NCBI GenBank assembly: GCA_011321935.1
Contig: DROJ01000277.1
Span: 1-33,284 of the forward strand
Direction of reading: 5' to 3'
Length of the DNA stretch: 33,284 nucleotides
From: Bacteroidota bacterium
Lineage (GTDB): Bacteria; Bacteroidota; Bacteroidia; Chitinophagales; Saprospiraceae
The stretch's first letter is position 1. Each line of letters opens with the position of its first letter. The notes beneath the pieces were generated by a model. It searched no databases. It was not told the DNA's origin and was given only the letters and a program-made list of their open reading frames with translations. The position numbers and the translations under genes are program-made. Below are positions 2,120-31,592 of the stretch, piece by piece.

Positions 2120-5100
2120 TCACAGCTCCCCGTTCACCGCCTCCACAACGCTTCTCACCAATTCCCGTTGCTTGTCTGCCCCCACATTTTCGACTTTAAA
2201 AGCGGCTATTTCTTGCCCTTTGTGAAAGACCCGTCCATCGAGGCTGACCATCCCGTTTTTGACTTGGTAGAGGCCGCGGATGGCATAGGCATTGCCCGCT
2301 TCGCGGCTGTCGGCAAAAATCATTTTCCCCAATTTCCCCTCCACGGGGTCTTCGGCCAAATGTTCGTCCAATAGTTTGGAAAGCAGTAGGTGGTCGTTCA
2401 TTTTATTGCGGTCGAGGAACATGCTCTGGCTGATAAAATTGTTGGCGCGGTCGAGCGGGATATTGATGTCGCCGTCCATCCAGCCGATGGAAAAACTCGA
2501 CGCCTCTTGGGAGGGGATGGTCAGTACGGGCGTTTGTTCCTCATCAATGCCGGAGGCCAGTTCGGGCACATGGTCGCGGGCAAATTGGAAGAGGCAGAGG
2601 ATGTCCACGGCGCCATTGTTTTTCACCCCTTTTCTGCTTTGCAGGCCATAGAGGAGGCTGTAAGTGAGCAGCCCCTGCCGGAGTTTTTGGTCTTCCCAGC
2701 TTTTTTGGTTCGACTCGCTGGAGGCCAGCACGAACATGCCGTTGCGGTCTTTGAGGCGTTCGAGTTCCCTTTTTTGGGAGCCGCTCAGGTCGCGGCTGCC
2801 GATGTTTTTAGCGGCCTTGCCCGAGTGGCAGGCGTCCATGATGACCACCCGTTTTTTTGCGGGGATGCCTTTGAGCCAAGCGGTCAGGGTATCGGTGGAG
2901 ATGCAGAGGTTGTTGCGGACATCGGCGTTGTCGAGGTTCAGTTTGCCGCAGTCTTTGGTGAGGTAATAAAAGTCGGATTGGCCGCCGCTGCCATAGGTGG
3001 TGCCATGCCCCGCGAGGAAGAGCAGCAGCACATCTTCGGCAGTCGCCTCGCGGGCTGTTTTTTGAAATGCGCGGCGGATGTTGCCCTTGCTGGGCCGCTT
3101 GTTTTTGTCGGTGGCCTCGGTGGTCAGCAGGGTGATGTGTACCCGGTCGCCGAAGAATTTTTTCCCTGTTTTTTCAAATGTTTCTGCTATCGCAATTGCG
3201 TCTTTGTCGGGAAAATTGAGGTCAATATCGCTGCCCGCATAATCGGAAGTACCGATGACGATGGCATGGAAGCTGGGTTCGGGTTTGTCGGCAAAAGAGA
3301 GGCTGAGTCCTCCGGGCGGATCGTTGTCGGCGGTGGTGCCGCCTCGGCTGCTTTTGGCAAATGGGTAGCGTTCGTAAGCGGGGCTTTTGAGCCAGTTGCC
3401 GACGTTGTAGGCGCGGATGGAAATGACGTTTTTCGCGAGGTTGGTATCTGCCGAAAAGAAGTGGTTTTTATAAAGGTCGAGGTCAATGGCGGGGCAATTG
3501 GCCTTTCCGTGGCAGGCATCTTCCAGCACCTCCGAGCCATTGATAAAGACGCTGGTTTTGCCGATGCCGCCGCTGCGTTTTTTCAAACGGATGTGCAGTT
3601 TGTTGTTCCTGATGGTGGCGCTGATTTCGGGGTACATGGCCAGTTCGCCGAGCGCCTCCACCGAGCGGGGTTCGCCTTCTTTGAAACCCATCAGCATGGC
3701 CAAAAGGCCGGGTTCGTAATAGAGTTCTTTGAGTTGGTCGAGTTCGATGGATTCCAGCCCCTGCACAAAATACATGTTCTGCATGGCGCCCGGCGAGGCA
3801 TCAAAAAGGCCGCCCGGGGCGATGGCCACCCAGTCCGCATCGCCGAGGTGGTTGATGGTGGCGAGGAGGCTGCCGTCCAGCCCGTTCCAGAGTTTCATGC
3901 TGCCGTCGTAGCTGCCGGTAATGGCTACTTTGCCATTGGCCGAGAAGGCCACCGACTTGACGAGGTCTGCGTGGCCGCGCAAAAAAACGGGCTTTGGGCT
4001 GCCCATTTTCCAGAGCAGTGCGTCCTTGCCGGAGGTCATGAGGAAGCGCTTGCCTCCGGGCGAAAACACCGCTTTTGTTTTGCTGCCGCAATAGATTTTC
4101 TCGTCGGGTTTTTCGGCATCGTACTCAAGGCTGAAAGTGCCGGCGATGGACTTGGATTCAATATTCCAAATTTCGACTTGGCTGTAAGCACAGGAAACGG
4201 AAAGGAAATATTTGCCGCTAGGCGAAAAAGCAACGGGCGTGATGCGGTCGGCCTGTCCGGGTATGTCGGCCACCTGCCTGCCGTTTTTTAGGTCAAATAT
4301 TTTTACCGAATTATCATTTGAGCCGCTCATCGCAAATCGGCTGTCGGGCGAAAAGGCCAGCGAAGTGACCTTGCCCCGGTGGCCGGTCAATGTGCGGATG
4401 TGCTCCATCTTTTCCATGTCCCAGAGGTCGAGCGTTTTGCCATAGGAAGTGGTGAGGGCATAGCGTTCGTCGGGCGAAATGGCAAAGTCTTGCACGGCCT
4501 CTTCCAGCTTTTTCGAGGCGGCCTGTTGGATGCCCTTTTTGTAGTCCCAACGGATCAGCGTCTTGTCATCGGCACTCGACAAAAGGAAGTTTCCCTGCGG
4601 GGAAAAACGGGCGGCGATGAGGTCAGCGGTATGCCCTTTCAGTTGGAGTTGGCCCTCTTGTTTTTTGGCATTCCAAACAGTGATTTCCTTGCTGAATTCA
4701 TGCACTATGCAGGCGGTCTCCTTGTCGGGCGAAAAATCCATTTGCCGGATCATTTTAGAATAGCCTGTGAGGTGGTGGACGGTTTTGCCGGAGGCTACCT
4801 CCCACAGAATGAGCGACTTATCGAACGAACCGGAAAGCAGCAACTCCCCGTTTTGCGAATAGCGGACTTCGGTGATGCCCCGCGCATGGCCGGTCAAAGT
4901 ATCAACCGCCACCTTGTTTTCGATGTCCCAAATGACGAGGTTTTCGTTGTTGGCGTAAGCGAGGTGTTTGCCGTCCGGCGAGAAGGCCGATGAGTGGCCG
5001 GGGGCATAGGCATTGGCGGAAATTTTCAGCACGTCCTTGGTCTCGGCGTCCCAAAGTTTCAGGGTATTGTCAATCGAACCTGAAAGCACTTTTCCCTCCT

Positions 5101-5761: not shown

Positions 5762-6081
5762 AATCATTTGGTTTTGAGGGTACAAGGTAGGGAGAAATGT
5801 TGGGAATGGAGCGAAAATTAGTTTAGTAAAAACAACCAGCATCTGTATCATTTTAATCATCACGAGGGGAAGCAAGTCTCCGTGCCCTTCCAAAAGAGGG
5901 GAATTGCCAAAGGGGTGCTGTGCATAATTCTCCCTCTCATAATCATTTGGATTTGAGGGTACAAGGGGAAAATGTTGGGAATGGAGCGAAAATTAGTTTA
6001 GTAAAAACAACCAGCATCTGTATCATTTTAATCATCACGAAGTAAAGTTCGTCTCCGTGCCCTTCCAAAAGAGGGGGAATT
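5755..6081 (-). repeat. Tandem duplication of the WD40-caspase upstream region
   Basis: The block 5755-5905 recurs at 5934-6081 with few differences (an offset of 179 bases). It contains the start-codon context (CTCTCATAATCATTTGG), a conserved stretch with AACCAGCATCTGTATCATTT, and ends in the GCCCTTCCAAAAGAGGGG word. The outer copy leads into the full palindrome at 6047-6116, while the inner copy has only a half element. The outer copy may be the relic of the promoter and start of the lost caspase paralogue. It covers most of the gene-free stretch 5762-6316; 6117-6316 shows nothing recognisable apart from AT-rich DNA ahead of the DUF4407 gene. Confidence 0.85.
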
Positions 6082-6116
6082 AATTCCCCCTCTTTTGGAA
6101 GGGCACGGAGACGAAC
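6047..6116. repeat. Perfect 70-bp palindrome, core family A
   Basis: Two 35-bp arms are exact reverse complements with no loop (centre between 6081 and 6082, AATT|AATT). The inner 24 bp of each arm (TGCCCTTCCAAAAGAGGGGG then AATT) are identical to those of the palindrome at 14407-14506. The outer 11 bp (GTTCGTCTCCG) are different there. It sits between the divergent WD40-caspase and DUF4407 genes. Confidence 0.95.
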
Positions 6117-7444: not shown

Positions 7445-7524
7445 AAGGGGTATTAAAAAAGGTATTGGGTATTAAAGTATTGCGTGCAATACCTTAATAC
7501 CCAATACCTTTTTTAATACCCCTT
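7445..7524. terminator. Bidirectional foldback terminator built of GGTATTA words
   Basis: Arms of about 39 bp pair with a single mismatch around the centre at 7484/7485. The left arm is made of GGTATTA-type words, the right arm of their complements. It fills the gap between the stop of the DUF4407 gene (7441) and the stop of convergent rny (7537), and the flanking A and T runs fit termination from both sides. The same word family builds the foldback at 31477-31592. Confidence 0.7.
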
Positions 7525-9209: not shown

Positions 9210-9350
9210 AATGTTGAGAGTTTGAGAAATTGAGAGAATGAGAGTTTGAGAGCAGTATAGTGGAGAGGCTCTTAATATCTCTGCTCCGATAATCAAGAGT
9301 CCCTTCACGGGGCTACTCTCAAACTCTCAATTTCTCAAACTCTCAACATT
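9210..9350. repeat. Foldback of GAGAGTTT/GAGAAATT words between zapA and rny
   Basis: The left arm 9210-9252 and right arm 9316-9350 are reverse complements apart from one extra 8-base unit (AATGAGAG) in the left arm. The interior carries GAGAGCAGTAT and AAGAGTCCCTT, words that reappear in the interior of the larger foldback at 17282-17480. Its position upstream of rny could affect read-through from zapA. Confidence 0.85.
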
Positions 9351-10063: not shown

Positions 10064-10405
10064 AGTGATTAGTAAAACAGTGATTGGTGATTAGTAAAGT
10101 AGTGATTAGTTATCAGTGATTAGTAAAGTAGTGATTAGTGATTAGTTATCAATGCGAATAACGGGTTAAATTTTTCGAGTATTGATTATCAATGGTTTAG
10201 GCTCCACGTTTACTAAACTTTAAAAGTTTAGTAAACGTAACTACCTGAAAATCAGTAGTTTTTTTTTACCCGTTATTCGCATTATCAGTGATTAGTAAAA
10301 CAGAGATGGAGTCACTAATCACTACTTTACTAATCACTAATCTACTGATAACTACTTTACTGATCACTGTTTTACTAATCACTACTTTACTAATCACTGA
10401 TAACT
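10064..10405. repeat. Nested foldback of GTGATTA words filling the pheT-zapB-like gap
   Basis: The outer left array (10064-10150) consists of GTGATTA/GTAAA words, and the right array (10284-10405) of their complements TAATCAC/TTTAC. Inside are matching 16-bp arms AATGCGAATAACGGGT (10151-10166) and its complement (10268-10283). At the very centre is an exact hairpin, ACGTTTACTAAACTTT (10206-10221) and its complement (10223-10238). The three nested layers explain the whole 349-base gap; no ORF is present. Confidence 0.88.
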
Positions 10406-10407
10406 AC

Positions 10408-12984
10408 TCAACGACGTATCACCGCCCCTGTTTTTTCCTCGTATGTCCGGATCAACTCATTCATCACTTTATCCACCTCCTTGTCTTTCAAGGTTCTTTC
10501 CGGGTTTTCAAAAGTAAAGCTGATGGCGTAAGATTTTTTGCCTTTGCCGAGGCGTTCCTCGTCTTCGTAAACATCGAACAAATTTATATCTTTTATCAGC
10601 TTTTTTCCAACTTTTCTGGCTAAGGCCGCAAGGTCGGCAAATTTCACGGAATTACCAATCACGAGCGCCAAGTCCCTGCGAACAGTGGGGTACTTGTTGA
10701 GTTCTTGCAAGCTGATGCTGTTCTTTTTGGCTGCTTTTAGCAACATGCCCCAGTCAAAATCAGCGTAGAACACATTGCTTTTGATTCCCATTTTTTTGCA
10801 GATTTTCGGCTGTACCTTACCAAACATGACCATGCTTTTTGGGCCTCGGTGGTAGTTCATTGCGTAAGCAAAAGCCCCCTCCAAAGGAGGGGAGGATGGA
10901 ACGCTCCCTCCCCTTTGGGGAGGGCTGGGGAGGGGTTTTTGTTGATAACCAGAAATGCCCAAACGTGCCAGCACATTCTCCACAAAAGTTTTTAATGAAA
11001 AATAATCGGCCTCTGGTTTGCCCGGATTTCGCCAACTTTCTCCATACCGCTGCCCCGTCATGAACAAGGTCAAATGCACCTGCTCATCAAACAGTTTTTT
11101 CACATTTATTCCCGCCCTCCTTTTGTCTTCTGATTGCAAGCTGCTTCCACTCGTGGACTGTGGACTGGCGGACTGACTGACTGCGGACTGAACCCGGTAA
11201 GTTTTTCCAAATTCAAACAATTTCAGGTCGGGCTGTTGTCGGTTGTGGTTGCGCAGCACTGCTTCCAATCCGCTGAAAAGCATGGTCGGCCGCATAATGT
11301 CGAGGTGGACGTTGGAGGTGTTGTTGACCCACACCAGCGCTTCTTCATTTATTGGTAAAATATCTTTGTAATACTTTGATTCAGAGAGCGATAGCGACAT
11401 TGTTTCGTTAAATCCATTGGCGGCGAGGTAGTTGCCGACGGCATTCCTGACCTCGTTCGGATCGGGCATTTCGCGCTCAACGATGCTGCTGCGTATTTGG
11501 CTCGGCACCGGCACATTGTCGAGGCCATAGACCCGTAGCACCTCCTCCACGATGTCGGCGGGGCGGGTCACGTCGGCCTTGTCCGTTGGCACCGAAACAG
11601 TGAAACCATCTGCCGTTTCAGATGTGATTTCCATGCCCATCGCCGACAATATTTCGTTTATTTTTTTGGGTGAAATATCCGCTCCGATGCGGGTGTTTAT
11701 GTAATCGTATTTCACCTCGATTTTTGCTCGTTCGATGGGCTTCGGATAGATGTCCACGATTTCAGAAGCGATCTCCCCGCCTGCCAGTTCGACGATCAAG
11801 GCCGCCGCCCTTTTGAGGGCAAATACGCAGCCGTTGGGGTCGCTGCCTTTTTCAAAAACCTTTGCCGCGTCGGTGCGCAGGTCATGGCGGGTACTGCTGC
11901 GACGTATCCATTTGGCATTGAAATGGGCGCTTTCGAGGAAGATATTTTTAGTTGTATCCGTCACCCCTGAGTCAATCCCACCGAACACCCCGCCGATGCA
12001 CATGCCTTTCGATTCGCTGTCGCAAATCATCAAATCTTGGCCGCTTAGTATCCGTTCCTGCTCATCGAGCGAGCGGAATTTGGTGCCTTCGGGCAGGGTC
12101 TTTACGAGTACCTTCCGGCCCGTTATTTTATCCAAATCAAATGCGTGGAGCGGCTGCCCGAGTTCGTGCAAAATGAAATTGGTGATGTCAACGATGTTGC
12201 TGATGGGGCGCACGCCTATAGATAGCAGCCGTTTTTTCAGCCAGTCCGGCGACTCGCCTATTTTCACATTTTTTATGGAAATGCCAGCGTAGCGGGGGCA
12301 GGCCTCCGTGTTTTCGACCACCACTTCAATGGGCAGCCCCCCCTGTCCCTCAAATGGGGGGAGTTCCGCTGCGGGGATTTTCACCTGTCCGCTGTGGCCA
12401 TGCTGTATTTTCAGGGCAGCCGCCAAGTCCTTTGCAACGCCGAGATGGCAAGTCGCATCAGAGCGGTTGGGCGTCAGCCCGATGTCGTAAACGATGTCTT
12501 TTTCTATTTTGTAAAATGCCCGTCCCGTGGTACCGACCGCCGTATCTTCTGGCAAAACGATGATGCCGTCGTGGTCATTTCCGAGGCCGAGTTCGTCCTC
12601 TGCGCAGATCATGCCTTCCGATACCTCGCCCCGGATCTTTCCTTTTTTTATTTTAAAAGGTTCGCCCTCGATGGGGTGCAGCATGGTGCCGATGGTAGCC
12701 ACCATCACCTTTTGGCCTGCGGCAACATTGGGCGCTCCGCAAACGATCTGCAGGGGTTCTTCCCCGCCAACGTCCACTTTGGTCAGGCTGAGCTTGTCGG
12801 CGTTGGGGTGCTTTATGCACTCTTTTACTTCCCCCACGACGATGCCTTCGAGGCCGCCTTTGATGGATTCTATTTCTTCCATGCCCTCCACTTCGAGGCC
12901 GAGGCTGGTGAGCAGGTCGCCGATCTCGCTGGGCGGCAGGTCAACGGCGATGTACTGTTTGAGCCAATTTAGGGATGTGATCAT
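10408..12984 (-). CDS. pheT: Phenylalanine--tRNA ligase beta subunit
   Basis: 858 residues from ATG 12984. Order of domains: N-terminal part (MITSLNWLKQYIAVDLPPSE), tRNA-binding/EMAP-like domain (about 40-155, HPNADKLSLTKVDVGG), B3/B4 editing domain (about 215-395, with GRKVLVKTLPEG and GGVFGGIDSGV), B5 domain (about 405-480), synthetase-like core, and C-terminal FDX-ACB domain (about 765-858, KYPTVRRDLALVIG). With PheS it charges tRNA-Phe and hydrolyses mischarged Tyr-tRNA (established). It is some 40 residues longer than I expect for the family, and the excess coincides with two repeat-derived insertions, at about residues 598-611 and 681-705. It leads the minus-strand block pheT, coiled-coil gene, zapA. 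Confidence 0.97.
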   Translation of the reverse strand: MITSLNWLKQYIAVDLPPSEIGDLLTSLGLEVEGMEEIESIKGGLEGIVVGEVKECIKHPNADKLSLTKVDVGGEEPLQIVCGAPNVAAGQKVMVATIGTMLHPIEGEPFKIKKGKIRGEVSEGMICAEDELGLGNDHDGIIVLPEDTAVGTTGRAFYKIEKDIVYDIGLTPNRSDATCHLGVAKDLAAALKIQHGHSGQVKIPAAELPPFEGQGGLPIEVVVENTEACPRYAGISIKNVKIGESPDWLKKRLLSIGVRPISNIVDITNFILHELGQPLHAFDLDKITGRKVLVKTLPEGTKFRSLDEQERILSGQDLMICDSESKGMCIGGVFGGIDSGVTDTTKNIFLESAHFNAKWIRRSSTRHDLRTDAAKVFEKGSDPNGCVFALKRAAALIVELAGGEIASEIVDIYPKPIERAKIEVKYDYINTRIGADISPKKINEILSAMGMEITSETADGFTVSVPTDKADVTRPADIVEEVLRVYGLDNVPVPSQIRSSIVEREMPDPNEVRNAVGNYLAANGFNETMSLSLSESKYYKDILPINEEALVWVNNTSNVHLDIMRPTMLFSGLEAVLRNHNRQQPDLKLFEFGKTYRVQSAVSQSASPQSTSGSSLQSEDKRRAGINVKKLFDEQVHLTLFMTGQRYGESWRNPGKPEADYFSLKTFVENVLARLGISGYQQKPLPSPPQRGGSVPSSPPLEGAFAYAMNYHRGPKSMVMFGKVQPKICKKMGIKSNVFYADFDWGMLLKAAKKNSISLQELNKYPTVRRDLALVIGNSVKFADLAALARKVGKKLIKDINLFDVYEDEERLGKGKKSYAISFTFENPERTLKDKEVDKVMNELIRTYEEKTGAVIRR
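10868..10940. repeat. In-frame CCTCC/GGAGG palindromic element inside pheT
   Basis: The stretch contains CCCCCTCCAAAGGAGGGGAG, a short spacer and CTCCCTCCCCTTTGGGGAGG, an imperfect inverted repeat. On the pheT strand it is translated as KPLPSPPQRGG and VPSSPPLEGAF, a Pro/Gly/Ser-rich insert at residues about 681-705 that does not look like PheT. The reading frame is kept, so the element is tolerated as a surface loop. It resembles the palindromes of core family A in design but not in sequence. Confidence 0.75.
11153..11190. repeat. GACTGNN heptamer array inside pheT
   Basis: About five units of GACTGTG/GACTGGC/GACTGAC/GACTGCG run through this stretch. The pheT strand translates them as AVSQSASPQSTS, an atypical low-complexity linker at about residues 598-611. 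The same word family builds the intergenic foldbacks at 16357-16514 and 18161-18330. Confidence 0.8.
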
Positions 12985-13303: not shown

Positions 13304-14233
13304 ATGTGGCAACCCTACCTAAACGGTTTCAAAGCATACCTCCAATTGGAGCGTTCCATGTCCGGCAACACCATCGAGGCGTACCTGCGTGACATTGGCA
13401 AACTGGTGCAGTACCTCGAAATACAGCAGCTCGCCACTTCTCCCGAAAACATCACCCTCGACCTGTTGCAGGATTTCATAAAATGGATCGGCGAACTGGG
13501 GCTGGACATCCGCTCGCAGGCGAGGCTCATCTCCGGCATCAAGGCATTTTACAAATATCTGCTCATGGAGGATATTATAACGAGCGACCCGACCGAACTG
13601 CTCGAAACGCCCCGCCTCAACCGCAAAATACCCGAAGTGCTGAACTACCACGAAATACAGCAAATGACGGCAGCCATTGACCACAGCACCCCGCATGGCC
13701 TGCGCAACCGGGCGATCATCGAAACGCTTTATGCCTGCGGCCTGCGCGTGACGGAACTCATCAACCTGCGCATCACCAACCTGTACCTCGACATCGGCTT
13801 TATCAAAGTGCTGGGCAAAAACGACAAGGAACGGCTGGTGCCCATCGGCGAGGAAGCCATCAAGCACATCGGTTTTTATGTGGAAGGGGTGCGGCAGCAT
13901 TTGAAAATAAAAAAGGACAGCGAGAACATCCTTTTCCTCAACCGCCGGGGCGGCAAATTGAGCAGGGTGATGGTTTTTTATGTCATCAAGGATTTGGTGA
14001 AATTGGCGGGCATCGAAAAAAACGTAAGCCCGCATACCTTCCGGCATTCCTTTGCCACCCACCTCATCGAGGGCGGCGCCGACCTGAAAGCGGTGCAGGA
14101 CATGCTCGGCCACGAGTCCATCACCACCACCGAAATCTATACCCATATTGATACGGGCTACCTGAAAGAAACGGTGCTGAATTTTCATCCGAGGAATGTG
14201 GCGATGCGGGGGAAGGGGACGGTTGACGGTTGA
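13304..14233 (+). CDS. xerD: Site-specific tyrosine recombinase XerD
   Basis: 309 residues from ATG 13304 (MWQPYLNGFKAYLQLERSMS). The frame extends to 13196, but that part is repeat DNA. An N-terminal SAM-like core-binding domain (about 1-105) precedes the catalytic domain. All active-site residues are visible and, from this start, carry the same numbers as E. coli XerD: R148, K172, H244, R247, H270 and the nucleophile Y279. XerD acts with XerC at dif to resolve chromosome dimers (established); XerC versus XerD is decided here by length and numbering. The last residues (RGKGTVDG) are read from the start of a GGTTGAC array, which also supplies the stop codon. Confidence 0.93.
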   Translation: MWQPYLNGFKAYLQLERSMSGNTIEAYLRDIGKLVQYLEIQQLATSPENITLDLLQDFIKWIGELGLDIRSQARLISGIKAFYKYLLMEDIITSDPTELLETPRLNRKIPEVLNYHEIQQMTAAIDHSTPHGLRNRAIIETLYACGLRVTELINLRITNLYLDIGFIKVLGKNDKERLVPIGEEAIKHIGFYVEGVRQHLKIKKDSENILFLNRRGGKLSRVMVFYVIKDLVKLAGIEKNVSPHTFRHSFATHLIEGGADLKAVQDMLGHESITTTEIYTHIDTGYLKETVLNFHPRNVAMRGKGTVDG

Positions 14234-14295
14234 CGGTTGACGGTTGACGGTTGACGGGGGACGGGGGACGGGGGACGGGGGACGGGGGACGGGGA
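14221..14295 (+). repeat. Double heptamer array: (GGTTGAC)5 then (GGGGGAC)5
   Basis: Exactly five GGTTGAC units (14221-14255) are followed by five GGGGGAC units (14256-14290) and a partial GGGGA. The xerD stop codon TGA (14231-14233) lies inside the array. The change from one variant to another at a sharp boundary shows block expansion rather than random drift. Confidence 0.97.
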
Positions 14296-14405
14296 TTGTT
14301 AAATTTTGGAAAATGCAGCACCTTTGGGGGCGTTTTTCAATTCATGTTTTAATCAAAAGCAAAGTGAGCCTTTCTTAAATTCCGAATTTTAATCATTCAA
14401 AATAA

Positions 14406-16352
14406 ATGAACAAATATATCCGCCCGACTACTTGCCCTTCCAAAAGAGGGGGAATTAATTCCCCCTCTTTTGGAAGGGCAAGTAGTCGGGCGGATATATT
14501 TGTTCACTTATCTTGGTTGGTTAAAATAGTGCTTTTCAATTTTACATTTGTTCTCTTTGCTTTCTTCCTCACCAATTGCGCCAACCCCATCTCCCCCACC
14601 GGTGGCCCGCGCGACGAAACCCCTCCCAAACTCGATACTCTTCTCTCCACCCGCAACATGCAAACTCGTTTTGAAAAACAAAAAATAGTGCTGGCCTTTG
14701 ATGAATGGGTAGAACTCAAAGACGCCTTTAATCAAGTGGTGGTCACGCCGCCGCTGGAGTTCCGGCACAAAGTGGAACGGAAAAAAAAGACGATCCAGTT
14801 TGAGTTCGACGAGCGGGAAATGTTGCGCGACAGCGCTACTTATATCATCAATTTTGGCGAAGCCATCCGAGACCTGACGGAGGGCAATGTAGCGCCCGTG
14901 GTTTTTGTTTTTTCGACGGGCGATTTTATTGATTCGCTCACCGTGGAGGGAGAAATAATGGATGCCTACACTGCTGAACCCGTGGAAGGTGCCCTCTTTA
15001 TGATGTATGAAAATTTGGCGGATTCGGTGCTTAGGACGGAGCGTCCTTTTTATTTTGCAAAGACAGATAAGGGCGGGAAATTCAAGGTCAGCAATGTCAA
15101 ATCAGGCACATTCAAAGGGGTGGCATTGATGGACGGCAACCTCAATTACCGCTTCGACAACGTGGCCGAAAAAATCGCTTTTTTGGACACTACTATTAAG
15201 GTGGGGGCATCGCCCGCCGATTCTATTATTACTATCATTGACACCTTTAATATGGACACTCTTCCAAAACCCGACTCCATTGGGTCAAATATCACAACCC
15301 TCGACACCTTTAATATAGACACCCTTCCAAAACCCGATTCCATCGGGCCGTCCACCGTCCACCGTCCACCGTCCACCGTTATCCTCCGCCTTTTTGAAGA
15401 AGAAAAAATATTGTTTCTCAATGACGATGATGCAGAAACCTATGGCCTCGTCAAATTGGCATTCAACCGCGAGCCATACGATGCCGTCGTCAGCTATGAC
15501 AGCCTCGGGCAATTGACTTTTTTGGAAAATGAAAAAGACAGCATCCGGCTGTGGTACTCCATGCAGGAGGATGTACCTTTTAATGTTTATGTCATGCGCG
15601 ACACCGTCGTTGATACGGTGAGAGTGGAGGCAGGGCTAAAAACAGTTTTTTTTGAAAATGCAAAATTGAAAACAGTTGGCAAAGCACCTTCCACATCTCC
15701 CGTTCAGCCACCGGGAGAAGCATTTTCGGTGGAGATGAACCACCCTCTTTTTTCGGTCAATGACTCGCTTGTTTTTTTGTTTGAAGATTCTATAAAAACG
15801 AAGGTGTCTGTGAATGCGGCCATTGATTCGGTGGAAAAAAGAAAGCTCCGATTTGATTTTTTACCAAAAGAAGAAATGCGCTATGAAGTGGAATTGCTGC
15901 CGGGCGCAGTGCTCGATATTTTTGGCCTCAGCAATGCCGATACCATCCGCCGGGCATGGACGGCCGGGGCAGAAAAGGATTTTGGAACGCTCAACCTGAC
16001 CATAAAAAGCCTCCGCCCCGACACCAATTACGTGATCCGCCTGCTGGCAAAAGACGATAAGTTGTTCAAAACTTTTATTGCCGAAGGAGTTGCTGAATAT
16101 CAAACCATTTTAAAATACCTGCCCCCTGACACCTATACTATAGAAGTCATCGAAGACCTTGACAAAAACGGACGTTGGACAACTGGCAATTACGACGCAA
16201 AACGCCAACCGGAAAGAGTGCAGCGCGCCACGCTCGAAGAAGTCCGCGCCAATTGGGAAGTTGATTCTAAAGTGGAATGGAATCCAGTTTTCAGTCCGCA
16301 GCCTCTCAGTCCACAGTCCACCAGTCCACAGTCTTCAGTCATTGAGAAGTAA
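14406..16352 (+). CDS. Ig-like-domain outer-envelope lipoprotein
   Basis: 648 residues if read from ATG 14406. A hydrophobic stretch and lipobox end at Cys58 (FFLTNC), followed by ANPISPTGGPRDETPP. This is the typical beginning of a Bacteroidota lipoprotein family carrying an N-terminal bacterial Ig-like domain (about 65-175, KIVLAFDEWVELKD and YIINFGEAIRDLTEGN), then a carboxypeptidase-like beta domain (about 180-240). The first 34 codons are entirely palindrome DNA. TTG 14517 would give an ideal 20-residue signal peptide before the Cys, so the original start may have lain there or been displaced. Residues about 279-325 contain a 21-residue repeat and a (TCCACCG)4 stretch; the tail (SPQPLSPQSTSPQSS) is translated from CAGTCCN words. 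Function unknown. Confidence 0.8.
   Translation: MNKYIRPTTCPSKRGGINSPSFGRASSRADIFVHLSWLVKIVLFNFTFVLFAFFLTNCANPISPTGGPRDETPPKLDTLLSTRNMQTRFEKQKIVLAFDEWVELKDAFNQVVVTPPLEFRHKVERKKKTIQFEFDEREMLRDSATYIINFGEAIRDLTEGNVAPVVFVFSTGDFIDSLTVEGEIMDAYTAEPVEGALFMMYENLADSVLRTERPFYFAKTDKGGKFKVSNVKSGTFKGVALMDGNLNYRFDNVAEKIAFLDTTIKVGASPADSIITIIDTFNMDTLPKPDSIGSNITTLDTFNIDTLPKPDSIGPSTVHRPPSTVILRLFEEEKILFLNDDDAETYGLVKLAFNREPYDAVVSYDSLGQLTFLENEKDSIRLWYSMQEDVPFNVYVMRDTVVDTVRVEAGLKTVFFENAKLKTVGKAPSTSPVQPPGEAFSVEMNHPLFSVNDSLVFLFEDSIKTKVSVNAAIDSVEKRKLRFDFLPKEEMRYEVELLPGAVLDIFGLSNADTIRRAWTAGAEKDFGTLNLTIKSLRPDTNYVIRLLAKDDKLFKTFIAEGVAEYQTILKYLPPDTYTIEVIEDLDKNGRWTTGNYDAKRQPERVQRATLEEVRANWEVDSKVEWNPVFSPQPLSPQSTSPQSSVIEK
14407..14506. 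repeat. Perfect 100-bp palindrome, core family A, at a start codon
   Basis: Two 50-bp arms are exact reverse complements with no loop (centre 14456/14457). The inner 24 bp per arm equal those of the palindrome at 6047-6116. The outer 26 bp (beginning TGAACAAATATATCCG) are unrelated to the other copy. The left end overlaps the ATG at 14406-14408 of the downstream lipoprotein gene. Confidence 0.97.
15240..15378 (+). repeat. In-gene 45-bp direct repeat plus (TCCACCG)4
   Basis: The segments 15240-15284 and 15303-15347 are near-identical (period 63 bases, 21 codons) and both translate as DTFNxDTLPKPDSIG. Directly after the second copy come four exact TCCACCG heptamers (15351-15378), read as STVHRPPST. 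Both stay in frame. Confidence 0.93.
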
Positions 16353-16356
16353 GCCT

Positions 16357-16514
16357 TTCAGTCTTCAGTCTTTCAGTCCGCAGTCTTCTCCACGGGAGTC
16401 CTTTGGACTGGCGGACTGAAGACTGGCCGACTGCGGCCTCCAAGACTTACTCCACAAAGATTGTCCAAAGGACTCCCGTGGAGAAGACTGCGGACTGAAA
16501 GACTGAAGACTGAA
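16357..16514. repeat. 51-bp-arm foldback of GACTGNN words after the Ig-like lipoprotein
   Basis: Arms 16357-16407 and 16464-16514 are exact reverse complements. They are made of CAGTCTT/CAGTCCG words ending in an inner block CTCCACGGGAGTCCTTTGGA. The 56-base interior contains CAAGACTTACTCCACAAAGA, which recurs in the foldback at 18161-18330. It begins 5 bases after the lipoprotein stop and may act as a terminator. The rest of the gap to 16754 (401 bases in all) is AT-rich and holds a candidate promoter. Confidence 0.92.
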
Positions 16515-17281: not shown

Positions 17282-17480
17282 AGAGAACGAGAGTTTGAGA
17301 GAATGAGAGTTTGAGAGAATGAGAGTTTGCCTGCCTGCCGTTAGGTAGGAGAGCAGTATCGAGAAGGGACTCTTTGTTTTTCGTTCGAGAGGCCAAAGAG
17401 TCCCTTCTCGATACTGCTCTCCTACCTAACGGCAGGCAGGCAAACTCTCATTCTCTCATTCTCTCAAACTCTCGTTCTCT
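17282..17480. repeat. About 200-bp foldback between the two skp genes
   Basis: Left arm 17282-17376 (95 bp) and right arm 17394-17480 (87 bp) are exact complements except for one extra 8-base unit in the left arm. The outer part is GAGAGTTT/GAGAGAAT words. The inner part contains GCCTGCCTGCCG, GAGAGCAGTATCGAGAAGGG and ACTCTTTG, around a 17-base loop. It fills nearly the whole gap between the genes. Confidence 0.95.
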
Positions 17481-18161: not shown

Positions 18162-18330
18162 CAGTCCACAGTCTCCAGTCTCCAGTCTTTCAGTCCGCAG
18201 TCTTCAGTCTTTGTGGAGTAAGCCTTGGAGGCCGTTCATTTAGCAAGCAATAATTTTTATGTTTGTCAATACAGCCAAGACTTACTCCACAAAGACTGTG
18301 GACTGTGGACTGAAGGACTGCGGACTGAGA
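18161..18330. repeat. Foldback of GACTGNN words before the sigma-factor gene
   Basis: CAGTCC/CAGTCTT words at 18161-18210 face GACTGTG/GACTGAA words at 18295-18328. The inner arms TTTGTGGAGTAAG(C/T)CTTGG and CCAAGACTTACTCCACAAAG pair, around a 50-base AT-rich loop. The inner core equals the one inside the foldback at 16357-16514. With the terminator it fills the 292-base gap between genes. Confidence 0.88.
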
Positions 18331-30073: not shown

Positions 30074-30143
30074 GTCGTTCATCCCAACTTTTGTGAATTC
30101 TTAACAAAAATTGTGCAATAATGCCAAAAGGGGCAATTCATAT

Positions 30144-30266
30144 ATACTGAACCATAATAGGTTTTGTGCATCGAGCGCAGGTTCTCCCCTTCTGGGGCTG
30201 GGGGCTGGCGAGGGCAAATGCACGACTTGTCCCGACCCCTCGGGAAAACCTATTATGGTTCAGTAT
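30144..30266. repeat. 123-bp element with 22-bp perfect terminal inverted repeats
   Basis: ATACTGAACCATAATAGGTT TT (30144-30165) is exactly complementary to 30245-30266. The 79-base interior contains GTGCAT/ATGCAC and CCCCTTCTGGGGCTGGGG words and has no ORF. It ends 5 bases before the bshA stop (30272). The layout resembles a miniature inverted-repeat element or a long terminator stem; no target-site duplication is obvious. Confidence 0.85.
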
Positions 30267-30271
30267 AAAAC

Positions 30272-31476: not shown

Positions 31477-31592
31477 GGTATTAATGGTATTATTGGTATT
31501 AAAGGTATTAAAGGTATTATTGGTATTATTGGTATTAATACCCAATACCAATAATACCTTTAATACCTTTAATACTTTTAATACCGATATTA
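31477..31592. repeat. GGTATTA-word foldback between bshA and the pyruvate-kinase-like gene
   Basis: GGTATTANN words (9-base period, about 31477-31536) face complementary TAATACC words (31537-31580) around the exact inner palindrome GGTATTAATACC (31531-31542). The right end runs into the stop codon of the next gene. It shares its word family with the foldback at 7445-7524, 24 kb away. Confidence 0.9.

Follow-up and report, generated by a model that had tools for sequence, protein, structure and literature searches.

REPINs are doublets of REP sequences that form hairpins and are found with RAYT transposases (PMC3116915). As described in that source, they share several traits with the palindromes reported here, namely many intergenic inverted-pair hairpins, compensatory changes and a link to a Y1 transposase gene. 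The layouts differ: REPINs keep their two outer REPs and vary the spacer, whereas the present palindromes are conserved at the tip and variable at the stem base. A 2018 survey of TnpA-Y1 enzymes (PMC6006769) describes a subclass 2.4 with double-foot REPs, a YIxNNP motif and GT[AG]G feet, and a subclass 1.2 with a Y---Q--HH signature, found in Bacteroidetes and near IS200 enzymes, for which the survey table enters ‘no’ under associated structures. CGTC-tagged REPs are short palindromic repeats reported also from Bacteroidetes, and the source gives no known dedicated transposase for them (PMC3733652); their stems are 8–9 bp long with a terminal CGTC. Perfect stems altered on both sides in a single event, as would apply here, are also described for template-switch hairpin mutations (PMC8794818), although those cases come from RNA genes and ours from a repeated element in two congeneric bacteria. 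A literature search found no paper combining ‘Saprospiraceae’ with ‘repetitive extragenic palindromic’; judged by title, neither the best 20 of 34 matches for RAYT, REPIN and template switching nor the best 20 of 70 for subclass 1.2 joined these subjects.

The window analysed here is a stretch of 33,284 nucleotides from a genome assigned to the Saprospiraceae (GCA_011321935.1, contig DROJ01000277.1), and it holds two perfect palindromes (Table 1). The best matches to its RNase Y come from Saprospirales/Saprospiraceae MAGs, none exceeding 83%. Checking the sequence bore out an earlier note on this DNA, according to which the inner 48 bp are exactly common to both and the outer arms, of 11 bp in the 6047 copy and 26 bp in the 14407 copy, are perfectly self-complementary within each locus. 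The same note took the outer arms of the two loci to be unrelated, but they are homologous: their core-proximal parts align (CGTCTCCGT and CGACTACTT), and against an outer-flank profile built from copies at other loci the two outer arms at 14407 reach 17.0 and 13.4, compared with 3.5 at the 95% level and 10.9 at most for shuffled arms. Imperfect symmetry runs on past the perfect palindrome of the 14407 copy (Table 1). This copy is unusual among 24 full copies in having 27 perfect nt beyond the core boundary, against 17 at locus L038 and at most 12 in the others. A half-core pattern allowing up to three mismatches matched five times in the window, whereas 100 shuffles averaged 0.06 matches and no single shuffle reached five. 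Rfam returned 18 matches on the window at E ≤ 1, every one under its gathering score; both palindromes matched only miRNA hairpin models, again under the gathering score.

Table 1. Palindrome copies and related features in the window (positions count from its first nucleotide).
Feature	Position	Strand	Remark
Full element copy, perfect palindrome of 70 bp	6047–6116	.	
Full element copy, perfect palindrome of 100 bp	14407–14506	.	
48-bp core, identical to that of the 14407 copy	6058–6105	.	
48-bp core, identical to that of the 6047 copy	14433–14480	.	
Wider imperfect symmetry, 71-nt arms, 93% complementary	14386–14527	.	Outer part matches the family outer-flank profile
Incomplete (half) copy: core and longer tip, without mirrored arm	5884–5936	+	
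Half copy, left flank with arm	5789–5901	+	Tandem pair, member 1, offset 175 nt
Full copy, left flank with arm	5964–6076	+	Tandem pair, member 2

A search of the complete genome, as the earlier note had proposed, confirmed a palindrome family: the exact 18-nt core gave 100 matches (47 + 53) in 6,743,163 bases and 633 contigs, and the same core read backwards gave none. Copies were read from 58 stretches fetched around core matches and the window, and were located by requiring the 18-nt core to be exact in one arm or both, so that core conservation in this genome is partly a product of selection. They are of three kinds. Full palindromes mostly have a 10-nt tip (GAATTAATTC or close to it), some having tips of 30–32 nt that contain two small hairpins. 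Half copies consist of one arm, the core and a short hairpin only (GGGGGAATTTATTCCCCC), and are frequent (84 regex matches without a partner). Inverted pairs, with spacers of 36 and 51 nt, lie near a transposase gene described below. The motif AAAAGA precedes the short hairpin in 37 of 64 cases. Copies are mostly intergenic, only 2 of 24 full copies (the 14407 copy and that at L009) falling within a greedy open reading frame call, in both cases possibly through a wrong start. By the same rough calls, 14 of these 24 occupy gaps between co-directional genes, 4 convergent gaps, 2 divergent gaps and 4 contig ends, and on this mixed context a fixed promoter or 3′-end role was rejected. An intrinsic terminator was likewise rejected, T runs being few: at least five T in the 8 nt on either side were found in 2 of 25 copies from the window’s genome and in 0 of 22 from a second species of the genus, here G208.

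Arm types were assigned with motifs A and B picked from the copies themselves and are thus only a hint; the 25 copies from the window’s genome fell into ‘--’ (9), ‘-A’ (7), AB (4), AA (3), BB (1, the 14407 copy) and ‘-B’ (1). At two loci whose similar flanks run in opposite orientation (L023 145–214 and L032 131–200), the arms show the same CAT/CGT asymmetry but with the arms exchanged, as though the centre had been inverted. The half core also occurs in a second context (...GAGAGCAGGACTACAA-core-GAATTTATTCCCCC...GTTAC), a repeat that frequently lies close to contig ends (L019 96, L021 96, L041 89, L044 3010 and others).

Besides the family, the window has long intergenic hairpins at 7445–7524, 9210–9350, 10103–10410, 16357–16514, 17290–17480, 18176–18327, 30143–30267 and 31491–31589. 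By hand reading, several have arms made of locus-specific short tandem repeats and most lie just downstream of a predicted stop codon. Tandem 7-mers (GACGGTT, then GACGGGG) also span the end of a xerC/D-like gene at 14218–14287. Long inverted repeats (score ≥25) number 8 in the 33-kb window alone, and 85 in 305 kb of its genome (L009–L066 and the window, loci chosen for the element) compared with 12 in 303 kb of G208 (L119–L138).

The exact core was present in 1 of 199 sampled family genomes, that of the window. Among 14 genomes of the genus, the half-core pattern at up to three mismatches matched 418 times in the window’s genome, 68 times in G208, 10 times in G209, twice in G204 and 0–3 times in each of the other ten. 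By OmpH, the window’s genome and G208 are mutually nearest among the genus genomes (82%), and G208 is syntenic with the window. In the comparison of orthologous loci suggested by the earlier note, no family member was found at the G208 site syntenic to the 14407 copy; the ends of the insertion could not be fixed against G208, divergence being too great and the best-scoring deletions being shifted 100-nt ones rather than the 142-nt element. One orthologous gap holds palindromes in both species with different arms (L016 in one, L150 in the other), which fits joint rewriting in place and, equally, two independent insertions. By eye, the G208 gap between ompH1 and ompH2 has no hairpin, and that between the DUF4407 and RNase Y genes has an apparent hairpin of unrelated sequence. 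G208 also carries a different palindrome family (AGACCTGTCAGGTTGTTTTTT...) of reverse layout, with alike outer arms and a varying centre (L119 3304–3387, L130 13326–13423, L138 24–105 and L159 7928–8013).

Arms match closely within a copy and vary between copies. Across the 24 full copies in which both arms have an exact core, the ten core-adjacent bases agree with the copy’s own other arm at 8.9 of 10 positions and with the arms of other copies at 5.8; farther from the core, both values are about 3. A weak outer-flank profile beyond the stem is nonetheless common to the copies, 24 of 48 full-copy arms and 16 of 36 half-copy arms exceeding the shuffled 95% level, counts that are inflated by loci that are recent duplicates of each other. 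Conservation of the arms among copies, which the earlier note had set against its own reading, is therefore found in part, in the 24 full-copy arms above that level, while the arms also change from locus to locus. The arms at different loci are diverged forms of one family arm, altered on both sides together, and in several flank-sharing G208 copies, judged by eye, they seem to have been inherited and then altered on both sides.

Changes relative to the consensus follow the same pattern. In G208 (22 copies: 20 regex copies plus L133:737 and L151:10305), 108 stem cells depart from the consensus on both sides and 2 on a single side; in the window’s genome (25 copies: 26 regex copies less L061), the counts were 47 and 13, with two further cells in which both sides differ from the consensus and from each other. 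The 13 one-side changes left in the window’s genome count against rewriting of the arms. Of the 572 stem pairs of G208, 2 are mismatched, as are 16 of the 868 in the window’s genome (6 G-T, 8 A-C and 2 other); among the six that could be oriented, a small hand tally gave three G-U and three A-C on the sense strand. With a mismatch-tolerant regex, stems are perfect in 14 of 26 copies from the window’s genome and in 18 of 20 from G208. A separate search of G208 by centre accepted only copies with an invariant centre and 12 perfect bp and so drops those with inner mismatches. Two copies lost in this way (L141 and L155) were recovered by the regex, which in turn misses copies with altered tips in the window’s genome (L047, L051 and L064). 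The 20 G208 copies found by centre have stems of 22–32 bp that then stop, and complementarity immediately past the stem ends is 23% and 31% in the two genomes, so the ends are abrupt. Covariation exceeded 500 of 500 shuffles and slid controls both in G208 (19 of the 22 copies, of one tip length) and in the window’s genome (22 copies with a 10-nt tip, other tips excluded), although related sequences may exceed shuffles without structure.

A tandem duplication in the window offers a local view of such change. The flank to the left of the 6047 copy is duplicated, and the 5884 half copy sits in the duplicate. When the sequence from 5789 is set against that 175 nt farther on, two early mismatches are followed by a 71-nt match, then by a 10-nt block in which six positions differ (5866–5875 versus 6041–6050) and finally by 26 matching nt that run through the core. 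In the full copy, the four innermost bases of this block (GTTC, 6047–6050) lie in the stem and are mirrored on the right arm. The block looks like a single local rewriting event, and the changed copy could be either one. Three of the six changed bases fall outside the mirrored stem, which counts against rewriting of the arms.

The transposase gene near the inverted pairs in the window’s genome (G000:C415; L191 3370–3882, minus strand) has element copies around it at 3098, 3289 and 4273, with more at 1262–1372. Its homologue in G208 (L133) is likewise accompanied by copies, at 274–328, within the transposase open frame, and at 710–766. Y1_Tnp genes occur in 12 of the 14 genus genomes, and a search with the C415 protein found some match in ten of the 14, yet its only full-length relative among them is in G208 (69%, 223.6 bits); the next best match reached 66.6 bits over half the length. 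Of the 14 genus genomes, 2 thus have the C415 subfamily; they are the ones rich in the element, and in each the gene lies among copies. At E ≤ 1e-30, C415-like proteins were found in 1 of 298 family genomes, that of the window, G208 seemingly falling outside that sample. No core-like copy was found near other Y1 genes, at 3 of 3 in the window’s genome and at the 6 of 7 examined in G208, where the seventh match (C184) was left out of the neighbourhood reading. We note that, since the window’s genome and G208 are nearest kin, the co-occurrence of enzyme and element may reflect shared ancestry rather than independent evidence; element-like matches in G209 and G204, which lack the C415 subfamily, also count against the link. 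Other palindromes lie near other Y1 genes, GTAACACGGACGGAAGTCCGTG at L194 and GTAACGCCGAACCCCAGTTCGGCG at L207, and at L192, beside another Y1 gene, a palindrome arm resembles window 30143–30267 and recurs at L016 5761.

Both enzymes have the Y---Q--HH signature and a HuH motif (YVFNQERHH with HAH in the window’s genome; YVFNQEQHH with HVH in G208). Against the IS200/IS605 model NF033573 (cut-off 55 bits) they score 44.3 and 61.3 bits, respectively, and against the REP transposase model NF047646 (cut-off 80 bits) 17.2 and 24.4 bits, which places them outside the REP-associated family by NCBIfam. A search for named relatives returned 65 pattern-matching stretches, none of them a relative, from a set that may have left out records near the window’s genome. 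The signature and the Bacteroidetes host agree with subclass 1.2 (PMC6006769), whose proximity to IS200 enzymes the two proteins may also share; unlike the entry for that subclass in the survey table, palindrome copies surround the gene here. Subclass 2.4 differs both in its motif and in its feet. A GT[AG]G guide within 6 nt of the stem foot, as in REPs and REPINs, was found in 0 of 25 copies from the window’s genome and 2 of 22 from G208. CGTC within 6 nt of the foot was found in 2 of 25 and 0 of 22; where present it is mostly within the stem, and stems of 22–45 bp exceed those of CGTC-tagged REPs (PMC3733652). The element is kept out of the canonical REP class because the guide and the enzyme family both failed to match. 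Even so, the view that it resembles no described element type is not supported, many of its features fitting REP/REPIN elements with a Y1 transposase.

We consider it moderately probable that these palindromes are copies of a non-autonomous, REP/REPIN-like hairpin element that probably relies on the C415 Y1 (HuH, IS200-like) transposase and keeps its arms matched through rewriting at the DNA level. The best reading of its layout is an element conserved at the tip and drifting at the base, the reverse of REPINs, and the C415 enzyme is a candidate for moving it. The likeliest cause of the mirrored arms would be copying of one arm from the other, since a match far closer within loci than between them, abrupt stem ends and few mismatches are expected from such copying. 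To this extent the earlier proposal of template switching or self-primed copying agrees with the data; its further claim, that flanking DNA is mirrored at each insertion, is not supported. Rewriting could proceed by template switching in replication (quasi-palindrome correction), which can build or repair the two sides of a stem together (PMC8794818), or from a cut hairpin end, where a 3′-OH such as HuH enzymes leave on cutting (PMC8266576) could act as primer for copying the 5′ arm of that end, a step that would complete half copies to full palindromes. The matching of arms may also owe something to selection for a perfect hairpin in single-stranded form. That the enzyme itself makes and keeps rewriting the palindromes, by cutting beside the tip hairpin of a half element so that the 3′ end copies the 5′ arm and some flank, seems to us improbable.

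Other origins of the matched arms were weighed against DNA-level rewriting. Two half units joined in inverted orientation, in the manner of a REP pair, would after loss of the spacer have matching arms because both arms are the same unit, later homogenised. Such an origin would account for the abundance of half copies and for the spaced inverted pairs near the transposase, and a central deletion in an inverted dimer has been suggested for double-foot REPs (PMC6006769); we regard it as possible, at below even chances, because on its own it leaves identical locus-specific differences on both arms unexplained. Structural selection alone, in which the need for a perfect hairpin, be it of transposing single-stranded DNA or of RNA, preserves compensatory mutations that arise independently on either arm, agrees with the strong covariation and with the compensatory changes described as common in REPIN hairpins (PMC3116915). 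One-side intermediates are too scarce for this to be likely, above all in G208 (2 versus 108), and the six differences of the tandem pair are crammed into 10 nt; selection on RNA in particular is at odds with the even tally of G-U and A-C mismatches, small as it is, and with the missing T run after most stems. An assembly artefact might be suspected in a genome of 633 contigs with many half copies near contig ends, but it is very improbable, given that genes are predicted on both sides within the contig for 20 of 24 full copies with exact cores and that the assembly of the second species has its own version inside contigs.

The palindromes suggest a candidate substrate for a group of single-strand-cutting enzymes that was listed without one in the 2018 survey. 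They also offer a many-copy natural record of palindrome arms that change and yet stay matched.
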